From Candidatus Atribacteria bacterium (GTDB lineage Bacteria > Atribacterota > JALVIU01): a stretch of DNA of 5,720 bases. Below, in pieces: positions 1 to 5,400 of the stretch. Under the pieces are notes generated by a model. The model searched no databases and was not told the origin of the DNA. It saw only the letters and a list, made by a program, of their open reading frames with translations. The stretch covers positions 1 through 5,720 of the forward strand of contig JALVIU010000077.1 in the NCBI GenBank assembly GCA_027028665.1, given 5' to 3'. Made by a program: the position numbers and the translations under genes. Within the stretch, counting starts at the first letter, position 1; each line of letters opens with the position of its first letter.

Positions 1-213
1 GGAAGACATATCTTACATTTTCATATAGCAGATAGTAATAGATGGCCACCTGGATATGGTCATCTTGATTTTGAAAGTATTTTGAGTACCTTGTTTTCTG
101 TAGGATACGAAGGATATATATCAGGGGAGATGCTGCCTAAGCCATCACCTGATGAAAGTATGAAGAAAACGATAGTATATCTAAATGAGATTTCAAAAAA
201 ATTACATATATGA
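1..213 (+). CDS. Sugar-phosphate isomerase/epimerase, TIM-barrel family (C-terminal 70 residues; 5' end outside window)
   Basis: An open frame runs from base 1 to a TGA at 211-213 with no start in view, so this is the tail of a longer gene. The visible part resembles the last strands of the xylose-isomerase-like TIM barrel (AP endonuclease 2 superfamily). It contains HIADSNR at visible residues 8-14, PPGYGHLDF at 16-24 and GYEGYISGE at 35-43. In D-tagatose/D-psicose 3-epimerases, a metal-ligand His, a substrate-binding Arg six residues later and a metal-ligand Glu 35 residues after the His form the end of the active site. Here H8, R14 and E43 have exactly that spacing. The enzyme probably isomerises or epimerises a ketose or related sugar in the cytoplasm using a divalent metal. 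The actual substrate cannot be told from this fragment. IolE or hydroxypyruvate isomerase relatives are alternatives. The next gene begins 15 nt after the stop. Confidence 0.8.
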   Translation, partial: GRHILHFHIADSNRWPPGYGHLDFESILSTLFSVGYEGYISGEMLPKPSPDESMKKTIVYLNEISKKLHI

Positions 214-228
214 TCAACATTACTTACC

Positions 229-1728
229 ATGAAAAAGGATAATGTTTCAAAGATAAGAGAAATAAAAAGAACTTTTTATGATGTATTAGAAAATCCAGAA
301 TATAAATTTAGACATGTTGTAGATTTTATAATTATTATACTTATTTTTGCCTCTGTTGTAACATATTTATGGGAACTCTCACTTCCCTCGAATAGTTATC
401 TTATCCCATTTTTTGAGGTATTAAATTCTTACTTTCTCATACTTTTTATCATAGAATACACTTTGAGATTCTGGGTTTCTACTGATTTTTTAGATGATAT
501 AAGATTTAAATATAAAAAGGAAGGAAAATCATTATTTTATGCTATATTATATGCAATAAAAAATAAGATTAAATGGATCTTAACACCTGCAAGTATTCTT
601 GATCTTTTGGGCATTATTCCATTCTTAAGGATTTCTCGAATGTTTAGGATATTTAGAGTATTTAGAATCTTTAGGCTTGCAAGATTTGCTGTAACTTCTA
701 ATATATATATAAATGTGTTTAGAAAAAGAGCTCTGGAGATCGGTTTTCTGCTTTTTATATCCTCTTTTATAATAATTTTTTCTGCTGTAATGGTATTTAC
801 CGTGGAGAAAACGGCAGGTAATAACCAATTCTCTTCCTTAAAAGATGCACTATGGTGGAGTGTGGTGACACTTACAACAGTGGGTTATGGTGATAAATAC
901 CCTGTTACTACATTGGGAAGGTTTTTTGCATCTGTTATAATGTTTATGGGGGTGGGAATTATAGCTTTACCTGCAGGCATTATCGGTTCTGCTTTAACTG
1001 AGGAGTTCAAAAACATAAAGGAGGGAAAGGTAAATTTAAAAAAGATGAAAGATCATATACTTATACTTGGATGGAATTCTTCTGCATCAAGAATAATCGA
1101 TGAACTGGAAAAAAGAGGTATCCTTCTTCATAGAAAGATTATAGTTCTTACGCCCGAGGGAGACATAGACGATGAAAGAGTTATATATAAAAAGGGTGAT
1201 CCTTCCAAAGAAAAAGACCTAATAGAGTCTGGTATAGAGGATGCGCATACCATCGTTGTATTGGCAGAGGATGTAAATAGTAGTTCAAGAAATCCTGATG
1301 CCTTTACCATGATTACTACTATGCTTGCAAAGGCGCTAAATCCTCTTGCCCATATCATAGTAGAAATAGTAGATCCTCAAAATGCAGAGCTTTTGGAAAA
1401 TAATTTGTATGGAGTAGAAATTATATACAAAGAAGAAGTCTCTATACAAATGCTTGTAAATTCCATCTGTACACCTGGGGCAGGAAAAATAGTTACGACA
1501 CTACTTAATTATAATTATGCAAATATCTATGAAGTCCCCATAACTTTACTAAAGGATGAATTTTCCACCTTTGGAGAACTTTATAAGATCCTGGGGGAAA
1601 AATATAAGATTATTCCTATGGGGATAATAGATAGCGGAGGATACATAGTAAATCCTCCACGAGAATATCCTATAGAAGAAGATGCAAAACTTGTATATAT
1701 TGGAGAAAAGGAAATAGATCTAGAGTGA
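229..1728 (+). CDS. Six-transmembrane voltage-sensor K+ channel with C-terminal RCK domain
   Basis: This 499-residue protein is an inner-membrane K+ channel that would form a tetramer. Predicted segments are S1 31-47, S2 62-82 (acidic E76), S3 118-133 (D125), S4 134-153, S5 168-191, pore helix and filter 203-222, and S6 231-255. S4 carries Arg at 134, 137, 140, 143, 146, 149 and 152, a perfect every-third-residue series typical of a voltage sensor. The filter is TVGYGD (217-222) and S6 has PAG at 248-250, as in bacterial Kv channels. A Rossmann-like RCK_N domain follows from about 275 (HILILGWNSSA, 276-286; KKGDPSKEKDL, 321-331) to about 400. A TrkA_C-like domain lies at about 430-499 (NPPREYPIEEDA, 475-486). 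The GW loop, the GDP motif and the PPREY tail closely recall MthK. ATG is the only plausible start before S1: a stop lies 15 nt upstream in the same frame and no Shine-Dalgarno sequence is visible. The gating ligand is unknown. The kinase gene overlaps its stop by 4 nt. Confidence 0.93.
   Translation: MKKDNVSKIREIKRTFYDVLENPEYKFRHVVDFIIIILIFASVVTYLWELSLPSNSYLIPFFEVLNSYFLILFIIEYTLRFWVSTDFLDDIRFKYKKEGKSLFYAILYAIKNKIKWILTPASILDLLGIIPFLRISRMFRIFRVFRIFRLARFAVTSNIYINVFRKRALEIGFLLFISSFIIIFSAVMVFTVEKTAGNNQFSSLKDALWWSVVTLTTVGYGDKYPVTTLGRFFASVIMFMGVGIIALPAGIIGSALTEEFKNIKEGKVNLKKMKDHILILGWNSSASRIIDELEKRGILLHRKIIVLTPEGDIDDERVIYKKGDPSKEKDLIESGIEDAHTIVVLAEDVNSSSRNPDAFTMITTMLAKALNPLAHIIVEIVDPQNAELLENNLYGVEIIYKEEVSIQMLVNSICTPGAGKIVTTLLNYNYANIYEVPITLLKDEFSTFGELYKILGEKYKIIPMGIIDSGGYIVNPPREYPIEEDAKLVYIGEKEIDLE
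643..678 (+). repeat. Four 9-nt tandem units encoding the Phe-Arg-X core of S4
   Basis: TTTAGG or TTTAGA recurs at 643, 652, 661 and 670, giving four in-frame 9-nt units of the form TTTAGRNNN. They encode residues 139-150 of the channel as FRI, FRV, FRI and FRL. The repeat is a direct DNA-level counterpart of the voltage-sensor arginine ladder. Third codons and the AGG/AGA choice vary, so it is not a recent perfect duplication. Confidence 0.85.
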
Positions 1729-4181
1729 AAAAAATTTCAAAAAGTTTTTTAGATATACTCCCAAATAGGGAGATAATAAATAGCAAGATATTTAAAAGGA
1801 TCTTCACGTGTTTTCTTTTCACAGTAGTTATTTTGTTTGCTGTTTCTGTTATTTATTTTCATTTTAGGATCTACAGAAAAGAGCTTTTAGAGTTTATGGA
1901 ACTTACGAAAAAGAATATTGTATTTGAAGAAAAATTTCTAAATCATATTTTATCTGATATTACTGTTGAAATAAACTATTTAAGAAATGATAAAGACTTT
2001 TTAAAGGCATTATCAGCTCCATTAAATAAACTTAATACTGAACTTTCTTATTTTATAAAAAATAACCCTTTCATTTTTAATAAATTTTCTTTATATAAAG
2101 CGCTTATAATTGTAGAGAAGGGTAAACCTATTTTTTATTATCAATTAGATACTAACAAGGGAGTAGTTTTGCCACATAAGAGTATTTTAGAAAAAATAAA
2201 AGGCAAAGCCATAGGAGAAAAACGAGGACTTTCACTTATGTATTCCTTATCTTCCGAACCAAAGAAAGGCTGTTTGTTTTATTATTTTAGATCTGGAAAA
2301 AGATATATATATATAAAGATATTATTTTCAAATATAATCCAATATCTTTCTCGTTATACATCTTATAACGAAGATTTCAATTTCATATATACACCAGATA
2401 GAGAGCTTATATATTACAAAGAGCCAACAAGGAAGCTTAATATAAAATGGGAAAGTTTAATACATATAAAAAAGGACATATCTGATTCCATGCTTATAGA
2501 AAAAAAATCATTTTTTATAATCGTATATATCCCCTTTAGGATACCCCCTTTTGAAAAATCTTTTTTGTATGTAAAGGTAATCCCTTTTTATAAGGTATTC
2601 AAGTGGAAAGAATATAATATTATAATTGTGCTTCTCTTATTTTTTGCTGTTGTTTTAAGTATTGTCTTTTCTACTTTTATATTAAGACAGATTGTTGCTC
2701 CTCTTCAATACTTAAAAGAAGCTGTTGTTGGCATTGCTCAGGGGGATTTTAGGAGGCCTTTGAGAATTTCTACCCATGATGAATTTGAAGAACTTACCAA
2801 TGCTATAAATGTGATGGCAAGAAGGATAGAGGATTTATATTTGAATCTTGAAGAAAAAGTGAAGATAAGAACAGAAGAACTTGAAAAACAAAGATATAGA
2901 TTAAAGAAATTATATGAGGTAAGCTTCAAATTTAGAGATAGGGAAAGAATGCTTAAAACTCTTCTTGATTATCTTCTTAAGATCCTAAATGCAGATATAG
3001 GGGCGATTTCTTATAAAGAAGGAGAGTGGAAATATATGGAGTTCATAGATAAGGAGGAGAGATTCTCATATAAATCAGGAGATAAAATGGGATACCATCT
3101 TTTAGAAGAAGAGGTATATGAAAACAGGAAACCTCTTATAATAGAAGATGTGTTAAAAGATAAAAGATGGGAAAAGGTCTTTACAGAATTAGGTATACGT
3201 TCGTATGTAGGAATGCCTATATTTGTTGACAATAATATATATGGAATTTTGAGTATTTCCATGCGATATCCTTATAGATTTTCTGATCAAGATTTAGAAA
3301 TCATCTCTCTCTTTATCCAGAGAATCTCCTATTTCCTTGAGACAGAACTCTGGGAAAAGAGGATAATAGAAAAGCAGAGAGAACTTGAAGAGTTAAATAA
3401 CTTATTATACCTAAAAAATGAAGAACTTATGAGGCTTGCCGAAGATTTAAGACAGGCTAATAAGGCAAAGAGTAATTTTTTGGCAAATGTCTCTCATGAG
3501 CTTAGGACACCTCTTAATGCAATACTTGGATTCTCAGAAGTACTTTTAGAGGAGTATTTTGGTAAATTAAATGAGAAACAAAAAGAATATGTAAAAAATA
3601 TATTAGAAAGTGGAAAACATTTGTTTTCTCTTATAAATAATATACTTAGTCTCTCTAAAATAGAGGCAGGCGAAGAAAGCTTAAGGCTTGTACAGGTGAG
3701 ATTACAAGACATTATTGATTCTGTGGTAATACTTGTGAATGAAAAGGCAAAAAAACATAATATTAAGATTTCTATATATCATGATGAGAAGATAAAAGAT
3801 ATAGTGGTAGACGAATTAAAATTAAAACAAGCACTCTTTAATTTACTTTCTAATGCAATAAAATTTACCCATGATGGCGGGAAGGTAGGAATAGTAACAA
3901 AAGATTTAAAAATGTGGTATAAAATTTCTATATGGGATACAGGAATAGGTATAAAAAAAGAGGATATGAGGAAACTTTTTAAAGAATTTACCCAGATTGA
4001 AAATCCTTATACGAAAAGGTATAGTGGAACAGGGCTTGGACTTGCACTTTCAAAAAAACTTATCGAAATGCTTGGGGGTTTTATTACCGTAACGAGTGTT
4101 TATAGAAAAGGAACTACTTTTAATGTATTTATTCCGAAGGATTTAAGTGAAACAGGAAAAAAAGAGGATCTGTTTGGTTAA
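1725..4181 (+). CDS. Membrane sensor histidine kinase (extracytoplasmic sensor-HAMP-GAF-HisKA-HATPase)
   Basis: This 818-residue hybrid-free kinase should autophosphorylate on His in response to a signal and pass phosphate to a response regulator. TM1 is about 26-47. An extracytoplasmic domain of about 250 residues follows, with a long N-terminal helix and PAS-like strands, suggesting a double-Cache fold (inferred). TM2 is about 298-319, HAMP about 320-372 (P326, DEFEEL 352-357) and a coiled coil about 370-397. A GAF domain spans about 400-541 (YVGMPIFVDNNIYGILSIS, 494-512), followed by a second coiled coil to about 582. The H-box is NVSHELRTPLNAILGF (588-603) with phosphoacceptor H591. The ATP domain has an N-box (LLSNAIKFT, 707-715; N706, N710), G1 DTGIGI (738-743), F-box around 752-755 and G2 GTGLGLA (768-774). 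All catalytic motifs are intact and no receiver is attached. GTG 1725 overlaps the channel stop as GTGA and precedes TM1; the next Met (58) would lose TM1. AAAGGA at 1707-1712 is a weak, distant ribosome binding site, so translational coupling to the channel is likely. Confidence 0.94.
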   Translation: MKKISKSFLDILPNREIINSKIFKRIFTCFLFTVVILFAVSVIYFHFRIYRKELLEFMELTKKNIVFEEKFLNHILSDITVEINYLRNDKDFLKALSAPLNKLNTELSYFIKNNPFIFNKFSLYKALIIVEKGKPIFYYQLDTNKGVVLPHKSILEKIKGKAIGEKRGLSLMYSLSSEPKKGCLFYYFRSGKRYIYIKILFSNIIQYLSRYTSYNEDFNFIYTPDRELIYYKEPTRKLNIKWESLIHIKKDISDSMLIEKKSFFIIVYIPFRIPPFEKSFLYVKVIPFYKVFKWKEYNIIIVLLLFFAVVLSIVFSTFILRQIVAPLQYLKEAVVGIAQGDFRRPLRISTHDEFEELTNAINVMARRIEDLYLNLEEKVKIRTEELEKQRYRLKKLYEVSFKFRDRERMLKTLLDYLLKILNADIGAISYKEGEWKYMEFIDKEERFSYKSGDKMGYHLLEEEVYENRKPLIIEDVLKDKRWEKVFTELGIRSYVGMPIFVDNNIYGILSISMRYPYRFSDQDLEIISLFIQRISYFLETELWEKRIIEKQRELEELNNLLYLKNEELMRLAEDLRQANKAKSNFLANVSHELRTPLNAILGFSEVLLEEYFGKLNEKQKEYVKNILESGKHLFSLINNILSLSKIEAGEESLRLVQVRLQDIIDSVVILVNEKAKKHNIKISIYHDEKIKDIVVDELKLKQALFNLLSNAIKFTHDGGKVGIVTKDLKMWYKISIWDTGIGIKKEDMRKLFKEFTQIENPYTKRYSGTGLGLALSKKLIEMLGGFITVTSVYRKGTTFNVFIPKDLSETGKKEDLFG

Positions 4182-4279
4182 ATTAGTTAAAAGACAATAA
4201 TGAAAAATTGTGGTAATATTATTATGGAAACATTAGGGAAAGATAAAGATAGGTGATAGAATAAGGAGATATAAAAAAT

Positions 4280-4308
4280 TTGGAAAAGTAGTCTTTTAAA
4301 AATATGAA
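4280..4308 (+). promoter_or_regulatory. Weak candidate promoter for the HD-GYP regulator
   Basis: TTGGAA (4280-4285) and TATGAA (4303-4308) are 17 bp apart, each matching 4 of 6 bases of the sigma-70/A -35 and -10 consensus. It lies in the only sizeable gap of the window, about 30 nt before the start codon. In such AT-rich DNA matches of this quality arise by chance, so this is only a candidate. If it is used, transcription would start near 4315, inside the loop of the inverted repeat at 4291-4326, and the hairpin would be absent from that transcript. Confidence 0.2.
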
Positions 4309-4326
4309 ATTTAAGATTTAAAAGGC
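4291..4326 (+). repeat. Inverted repeat / possible RNA hairpin abutting the ribosome binding site
   Basis: CTTTTAAA (4293-4300) and TTTAAAAG (4317-4324) are perfect reverse complements separated by 16 nt. In RNA the stem extends outward by a U-G pair (4292/4325) and a G-C pair (4291/4326), giving ten pairs. The right arm ends one base before GGAGGT. There is no following T tract, so it is not an intrinsic terminator. It might be an operator for a dimeric regulator, an RNA element tuning initiation, or simple AT-rich chance. No other clear element is visible in 4182-4338 except an 18-codon ATG frame at 4200-4256 that has no support. Confidence 0.45.
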
Positions 4327-4327
4327 C

Positions 4328-4333
4328 GGAGGT
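4328..4333 (+). promoter_or_regulatory. Strong Shine-Dalgarno site fixing a TTG start
   Basis: GGAGGT lies 5 nt before TTG 4339-4341. It is the best ribosome binding site in the window. It decides the start of the response regulator, since no in-frame ATG occurs until residue 57, inside the REC domain. Starting at TTG leaves the usual short lead before the first REC strand (KILIVDDE). Confidence 0.85.
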
Positions 4334-4338
4334 ATAAG

Positions 4339-5400
4339 TTGAGGGATAGACCAAAGATCTTAATAGTAGATGATGAGAAGTTAAATGTGGATTTAATAGA
4401 AGCATTTTTAATCCCACATGGATATGAGATCCTCAGAGCATATAATGGAGATGAGGCATTGGAAATAATTTTTAAGGAACAGCCCGATATAGTGTTACTT
4501 GATGTAATGATGCCTGGTAAAAATGGATTTGAAGTAACAGAGGCTGTAAAAAATAATCCCGAAACCATTGATATACCTGTATTACTTGTAACTGCCTTAT
4601 CAGATAGGGAATCTCGTATAAGAGGGGTTGATGCAGGAGCCGATGATTTTATTTCTAAGCCTATAGATAAAACACTTCTTATAGCCAGAGTAAGATCTTT
4701 GCTTAAAATTAGGGCATTTAATATGCTACAAAAAGAGTATAGAAAGTCATTAGAGAAAGAAGTATCTAAGCTTACAGAGGACCTGCAAAAAATGTATGAT
4801 AAACTCAAACAAGCCTATCAAGATACAATTTATAGACTTTCTCTCGCCGCAGAGTTTAAAGATGAAGATACGTATAATCATATTAGGAGAGTAGGTTATA
4901 TCTCAAGGGAGGTATCAAAAGCTTTAGGACTTGATAAGAACCTTCAAGAACTTATATTTTTTACTGCTCCTATGCATGATATAGGAAAGATAGGAATTCC
5001 TGATGATATATTATTTAAGCCAGCAAAGCTTACCAAAGAAGAATTTGAAATAATGAAACAACATACATTAATAGGTGCTAAAATTCTTGGCGGATCAGAT
5101 GTTGATTACTTAAAAACAGGTGCAATTATTGCACTTAACCATCATGAAAAATTTGATGGCTCTGGATATCCTAATGGATTAAAGGGGAAGGAAATACCCA
5201 TAGAGGGTAGGGTTGTAGCTATCGCAGATGTATTTGATGCCTTAACATCCAGAAGGCCTTATAAGGAACCTTTTCCTATAGATAAATCCTTAAAAATTAT
5301 ACTTGATTCACGGGGTACACATTTTGATCCAGATGTAGTAGATGCCTTTTTCTCCGTAAAGAATAACATACTTGAGATAAAGGAGCAATTTAAAGATTGA
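4339..5400 (+). CDS. Response regulator with HD-GYP cyclic-di-GMP phosphodiesterase output (RpfG-like)
   Basis: This is a 353-residue cytoplasmic two-domain protein. The REC domain (about 5-122) has the acidic pair D11/D12, phosphoacceptor D55 in LLDVMMPG, T85 and K107-P108, so it should be phosphorylatable. A helical linker (about 125-165) leads to an HD-GYP domain (about 165-345). Its key residues are all present: H181 (HIRR), H213-D214 in HDIGKIGIPDD (213-223) with K217, H242, H268-H269, the GYP signature at 276-278, and D297 in ADVFDALTSRRPY (296-308). HD-GYP enzymes use a bi- or trinuclear metal centre to hydrolyse cyclic-di-GMP to pGpG or GMP. Phosphorylation of REC typically controls this activity. 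The length is usual for a REC-HD-GYP protein. The start is TTG, set by GGAGGT. The orphan kinase 157 nt upstream is the obvious phosphodonor, inferred from position. A degenerate or non-cyclic-di-GMP role is unlikely, though the substrate preference (cyclic-di-GMP or 3',3'-cGAMP) cannot be read here. Confidence 0.94.
   Translation: MRDRPKILIVDDEKLNVDLIEAFLIPHGYEILRAYNGDEALEIIFKEQPDIVLLDVMMPGKNGFEVTEAVKNNPETIDIPVLLVTALSDRESRIRGVDAGADDFISKPIDKTLLIARVRSLLKIRAFNMLQKEYRKSLEKEVSKLTEDLQKMYDKLKQAYQDTIYRLSLAAEFKDEDTYNHIRRVGYISREVSKALGLDKNLQELIFFTAPMHDIGKIGIPDDILFKPAKLTKEEFEIMKQHTLIGAKILGGSDVDYLKTGAIIALNHHEKFDGSGYPNGLKGKEIPIEGRVVAIADVFDALTSRRPYKEPFPIDKSLKIILDSRGTHFDPDVVDAFFSVKNNILEIKEQFKD
5379..5385 (+). 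promoter_or_regulatory. Shine-Dalgarno site for the downstream overlapping gene
   Basis: AAAGGAG lies inside the last codons of the HD-GYP gene, 11 nt before TTG 5397. The spacing is a little long but acceptable. Together with the TTGA stop/start overlap it supports a start at 5397 and translational coupling. Confidence 0.55.

Follow-up and report, generated by a model that had tools for sequence, protein, structure and literature searches.

Response regulators of the HD-GYP type that are paired with a histidine kinase are well known. In the RpfC/RpfG system, the gene of a membrane kinase lies beside that of a REC-HD-GYP regulator, which is the arrangement also found in the locus described here, with RpfC being a hybrid kinase, whereas the kinase of the present locus has no receiver. 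On the side of the ion channels, Kch of Escherichia coli is a six-helix channel with an RCK domain, like the channel encoded upstream of this kinase. Among the REC/HD-GYP proteins, TM0186 is an active enzyme, while RpfG is devoid of two metal ligands (PMC4159591). Moreover, the cfcABCDE genes of Pseudomonas putida comprise a kinase and CheB/CheR genes clustered with a c-di-GMP response regulator (PMC4951495). With regard to potassium channels, YugO of B. subtilis acts via KinC, a kinase responsive to leakage of K+ (PMC3667857), and electrical signalling by K+ channels and c-di-GMP were reported to interact in Geobacter (PMC11283642). No paper joining a potassium channel, a histidine kinase and an HD-GYP protein was found in the literature searched; the first-pass annotation of this DNA had likewise known of no description of this combination as a module.

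The window, i.e., the whole stretch of 5720 nt that was analysed, corresponds to one entire contig (C77) of a metagenome-assembled genome (413 contigs, 1.79 Mb, 90% complete), and all of its genes are located on the plus strand (Table 1). The channel, the kinase and the REC-HD-GYP protein comprise 499, 818, and 353 aa, respectively. The kinase gene starts with GTG, overlapping the TGA of the channel gene by 4 nt, and the REC-HD-GYP gene starts with TTG, with a GGAGG motif a few nucleotides upstream. The edges of this cluster are not natural ones since genes continue on both sides, namely the isomerase gene ending 15 nt before the channel start and, downstream, the overlapping ORF, for which searches of Pfam, NCBIfam and 60 relatives gave no match. 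For the three genes, the coordinates, overlap and domain assignment given in the first-pass annotation were all reproduced by ORF calls and Pfam, including a kinase without receiver that is followed by a receiver fused to an intact HD-GYP domain with all catalytic residues.

Table 1. Features of the window and of the two loci encoding full-length relatives of its channel.
Stretch	Feature	Position	Strand	Basis or characteristics
Window	Sugar isomerase/epimerase-like gene, 3' end (xylose-isomerase-like TIM barrel, AP_endonuc_2)	1..213	+	Pfam AP_endonuc_2 E 2.4e-8, profile 178-245 of 249
Window	K+ channel, six-helix, Kv-type sensor, TVGYGD filter and one C-terminal RCK, BK/MthK-like	229..1728	+	Pfam, profile matches, AlphaFold/Foldseek, full-length relatives L244 and L245
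Window	Membrane histidine kinase: HAMP, GAF, HisKA (H591), HATPase_c, without receiver	1725..4181	+	Pfam, motifs, hydropathy, identity to G024 core
Window	Intergenic gap, 157 nt	4182..4338	+	No stable RNA structure, terminator-like site or Rfam match
Window	REC-HD-GYP response regulator, predicted c-di-GMP phosphodiesterase	4339..5400	+	Pfam, PmGH (4mcw) alignment, residue map versus PMC4159591
Window	Further ORF, 5' part, cut at contig end	5397..5720	+	4-nt overlap with HD-GYP stop; no family match
L244	Full-length channel relative	8648-10150		Voltage sensor and one RCK
L245	Full-length channel relative	3445-4941		Voltage sensor and one RCK

The REC-HD-GYP protein matches Response_reg (5e-28) and HD_5 (9e-36) in Pfam and features all receiver residues involved in phosphorylation (D11, D12, D55, T85, K107) as well as the key residues of an HD-GYP domain (D175, D177, H181, H213, D214, K217, H242, H268, H269, D297). 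The HD-GYP domain aligns gap-free with PmGH (4mcw) over 204 residues (E 7e-63), whereby the eight metal ligands of PmGH (E/D185, H189, H221, D222, H250, H276, H277, D305) correspond to D177, H181, H213, D214, H242, H268, H269, and D297. The exchange of E185 for D is an allowed variant of this ligand in HD-GYP proteins (PMC4159591). Both proposed catalytic residues (PmGH D183 and K225) and the arginine and lysine contacting the substrate (R314, K317) are likewise present. The E/D-T-G signature after the carboxylate ligand is absent, with the protein reading D-T-Y; it is no criterion for membership in the trinuclear, PmGH-type group, because PmGH itself reads E-T-Q. Owing to the complete conservation of the metal ligands and catalytic residues, the protein is likely an active c-di-GMP phosphodiesterase. 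A search of viral contigs with the HD-GYP protein yielded one distant match.

Signalling by c-di-GMP exists in the source genome, as matches to GGDEF (9), HD-GYP (4) and PilZ (2) occur there; GGDEF and PilZ proteins were those that the first-pass annotation had proposed to look for. Two further loci of this genome touch on the same subject. One of them (L252; G000:C59:5000-16574, 275-7000, plus strand) encodes a receiver, CheW, an unmatched ORF, an MCP, CheA with a receiver, CheR, and a REC-GGDEF protein and looks like a Wsp-like chemosensory operon driving c-di-GMP synthesis. The other one (L113; G000:C366, 2-3053, plus strand) is a locus of the chemosensory type, in which a CheA-type kinase is followed by a stand-alone receiver and then by an HD-GYP protein of 362 aa, a likely c-di-GMP phosphodiesterase.

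The kinase shows Pfam matches to HAMP (5e-11), GAF (1e-15), HisKA (2e-24), and HATPase_c (1e-26) and none to a receiver, and the predicted phospho-acceptor residue H591 was confirmed in its motif. Hydropathy peaks near residues 20-50 and 291-327 indicate two transmembrane helices around an outside region of approximately 250 aa, for which neither a recognised family nor a relative in 60 genomes was found. A Cache-like ligand sensor is plausible in this region by analogy, because related kinases show weak dCache matches. A single-sequence fold of the sensor region was set aside (pLDDT 42).

In nine other genomes (G024, G032, G045, G025, G007, G053, G014, G016, G052), a REC-HD-GYP gene is preceded, immediately or at a short distance, by a kinase gene in the same orientation, and the best matches of both proteins repeatedly share one locus. 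The closest of these loci, in G024, reaches 53% identity for the catalytic core of the kinase, 50% for the REC and 48% for the HD-GYP domain. Pairwise distances of the kinase core correlate with those of the REC (r = 0.84) and the HD-GYP domain (r = 0.69), values which partly reflect species relationships and neither of which was reached in 5000 permutations. Due to this conserved neighbourhood and parallel divergence, kinase and REC-HD-GYP protein are best read as a cognate two-component pair with presumed phosphotransfer between them, and the kinase-to-HD-GYP pairing put forward in the first-pass annotation thereby gains support. Most of the nine relatives' kinases carry one or two receivers. 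G024, G032, G025, and G007 encode CheR immediately ahead of the kinase, and in these relatives the stretch from the kinase core to the REC-HD-GYP gene contains receivers, either as part of the kinase or as separate proteins; in G024, these are two separate receiver frames, the first of which is incomplete. Thus, the order CheR, kinase, receivers and REC-HD-GYP recurs in four genomes of the source phylum as a module which may deserve its own description. The corresponding loci (L095, 2058-5719 on the minus strand, L096, L098, and L099) all show CheR directly upstream of the kinase with fused or free receivers and REC-HD-GYP, although the first of the free receivers of L095 has a short and perhaps disrupted reading frame.

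Based on these comparisons, it is quite probable that the window combines a cognate kinase/REC-HD-GYP pair for c-di-GMP breakdown with a channel gene serving separately in homeostasis. The membrane kinase would sense a signal via its own outside domain, the GAF domain or both, and, judging by its motifs, would autophosphorylate at H591. The phosphate would then pass to D55 of the regulator, as the conserved neighbourhood and parallel divergence suggest, and the phosphorylated regulator would switch the hydrolysis of c-di-GMP by the HD-GYP domain, for which the fully conserved PmGH active site argues. The pair would represent a reduced form, without CheR and the extra receivers, of the module that several genomes of this phylum possess. 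The channel may act in K+ or membrane-potential homeostasis and would share the transcription unit because the compact genome packs its genes densely. What speaks against this separation is that the sensor region of the kinase, being without recognised family, could in principle sense something related to the channel.

A kinase acting on stand-alone REC proteins encoded at other loci, with the HD-GYP protein being driven by a different kinase, appears unlikely in view of the recurrent adjacency and parallel divergence of both proteins. It would be consistent with the 157-nt gap between the two genes, with the occurrence of other kinases and chemosensory kinases in the source genome, and with the extra receivers between both genes in relatives, on account of which a relay via another receiver is conceivable. 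The gap is the largest in the cluster, and gaps at least as wide were found in 7 of 83 sampled same-strand pairs, itself counted. Its folding was weaker than that of shuffled sequences and an Rfam search gave no match, and promoter and terminator predictions were as numerous as in shuffles and hence uninformative.

The channel gene encodes matches to Ion_trans (2e-28) and TrkA_N (5e-10), with Ion_trans_2 likewise above the cut-off. It exhibits the features of Kv membership, i.e., regularly spaced S4 arginines (seven, at every third residue: 134/137/140/143/146/149/152) and a TVGYGD filter (TTVGYGD from residue 216), and additionally a C-terminal RCK domain as in MthK- and BK-type channels, recognised by Pfam, profile and model. 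Among solved structures, KCNQ channels come closest in sequence to the membrane part (KCNQ5 with E 1e-26), and the family profile matches MthK (7e-41) and BK/Slo1 (3e-40), covering both pore and RCK. An AlphaFold model built from 12 sequences (mean pLDDT 79) leaves the packing of the domains uncertain because of its pTM of 0.45; Foldseek placed MthK and Slo1 on top. The protein is a BK/MthK-like K+ channel, whose gating would probably depend on voltage and on a ligand of the RCK domain. Full-length relatives were absent from the 60 relatives, and two (34-36% identity, 498-500 aa) were detected in 77 genomes of another phylum. Both are encoded in the order LGT, TPR protein, channel and solute-binding protein, the next gene following closely or overlapping, and no kinase occurs in these neighbourhoods. 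A search of named genomes with the channel sequence alone gave no match, and the best 80 channels considered here derive from a search with an alignment. Some of them feature a voltage sensor with other C-termini and some an RCK without voltage sensor, whereas none of these 80 was seen to combine both. A full Kv voltage sensor joined to an RCK domain, as in the window channel and its two relatives, is therefore a rare architecture in prokaryotes. The source genome also possesses a TrkH gene adjoining a TrkA-type gene.

The joint occurrence of channel, kinase and HD-GYP gene was observed in the source genome only and fails in every relative examined, all of which are outside its family. A lack of adjacency between channel and kinase in relatives was one of the outcomes by which the first-pass annotation had proposed to judge its own idea, and it applies to all of them. 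Within the stretch examined, none of the nine kinase/REC-HD-GYP loci features a channel, and CheR occupies in four relatives the place that the channel has in the window. Conversely, channel loci show no association with kinase and HD-GYP genes: none of the best 80 channels of named genomes has an HD-GYP gene within three genes, and two of them adjoin a kinase on the same strand, with about one expected by chance, as kinases account for 7 of 896 ORFs in the background. In these two loci, from a Methanomicrobiaceae archaeon (L192) and Desulfocapsa (L162), a hybrid kinase lies directly upstream of the K+ channel.

The overlap of channel and kinase genes is real and implies cotranscription, as stated in the first-pass annotation, yet it is nothing special in this genome. 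Sampled neighbouring ORFs share the strand in 83 of 91 pairs (91%), and 62 of these 83 (about three quarters) are spaced by -20 to +30 nt, so that unrelated genes commonly lie close together here. In 14 of the 83 same-strand pairs, the downstream gene could begin with 4 or 1 nt of overlap. The sample comprised 20 drawn contigs, 12 of which read as N and contributed no pairs. As such overlaps are common in the source genome, the 4-nt overlap was rejected as a sign of functional linkage.

From the three-gene module initially proposed, the kinase/HD-GYP pair hence persists, while the channel as its co-component, be it source or target of the signal, finds no support at the related loci. Electrical control of c-di-GMP is likewise not supported because the channel is a neighbour in one genome only; it is probably just an operon neighbour of the pair. 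A kinase that senses channel-mediated K+ flux or depolarisation and thereupon controls c-di-GMP breakdown would fit the cotranscription implied by the overlap and has a distant precedent in YugO acting through KinC (PMC3667857), besides the interaction known from Geobacter (PMC11283642). It is nevertheless very unlikely since the related kinase/HD-GYP loci are all without channel, the channel relatives without kinase, and YugO is encoded with MstX and not with KinC. The more specific idea that a BK-like voltage- and ligand-gated channel replaced CheR in the module, whereby c-di-GMP breakdown would receive direct input from membrane potential or K+ flux, is met with the same strong doubt. Still, the link of channel and kinase could be an innovation of this lineage, an idea based on a single genome, as the compared relatives all belong to other families. 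Regulation of the channel or its expression by the phospho-relay or c-di-GMP is very improbable: despite the shared transcription unit and the binding of regulatory ligands by RCK domains of known channels, the association is not conserved, the output domain is an enzyme and not a DNA-binding domain, and nothing here points to c-di-GMP binding by the RCK of the window.

Should the channel provide input to the pair, c-di-GMP and the electrical signalling of bacteria, as yet tied only indirectly as fields of study, would be joined directly at the genetic level. As it stands, with the pair and the channel taken as separate, the locus mainly documents, for a phylum that has received little study, a conserved kinase/REC-HD-GYP module, which in relatives comprises CheR and additional receivers, along with a rare prokaryotic channel uniting a full Kv voltage sensor with an RCK domain.

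Compared with described channels, the window channel shares pore and RCK with MthK, BK (Slo1), and GsuK. It differs from MthK and GsuK by its voltage sensor and from BK by having one RCK domain instead of two. An MthK-like GW motif is present, and D324 and E379 fall on two of the three Ca2+ ligand positions of MthK, the third being V. The closest NCBIfam model is that of E. coli Kch (PRK10537), with 84 bits versus a cut-off of 425, so that the channel is no member of this family. YugO/KinC links a K+ channel with a histidine kinase within a single biofilm pathway; unlike in the window, its relay leads to Spo0A without an HD-GYP protein, and its channel and kinase genes lie in separate operons. 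Regarding the pair, the cfcABCDE genes resemble the CheR-kinase-REC-HD-GYP loci of the relatives, with a diguanylate cyclase as output versus HD-GYP here and with CheR missing in the window. In contrast to PmGH of Persephonella marina, which shows no receiver match, the window protein carries a receiver, and, whereas RpfG misses two metal ligands, it keeps all eight, sharing its REC/HD-GYP architecture with the phosphodiesterases of the TM0186 type.
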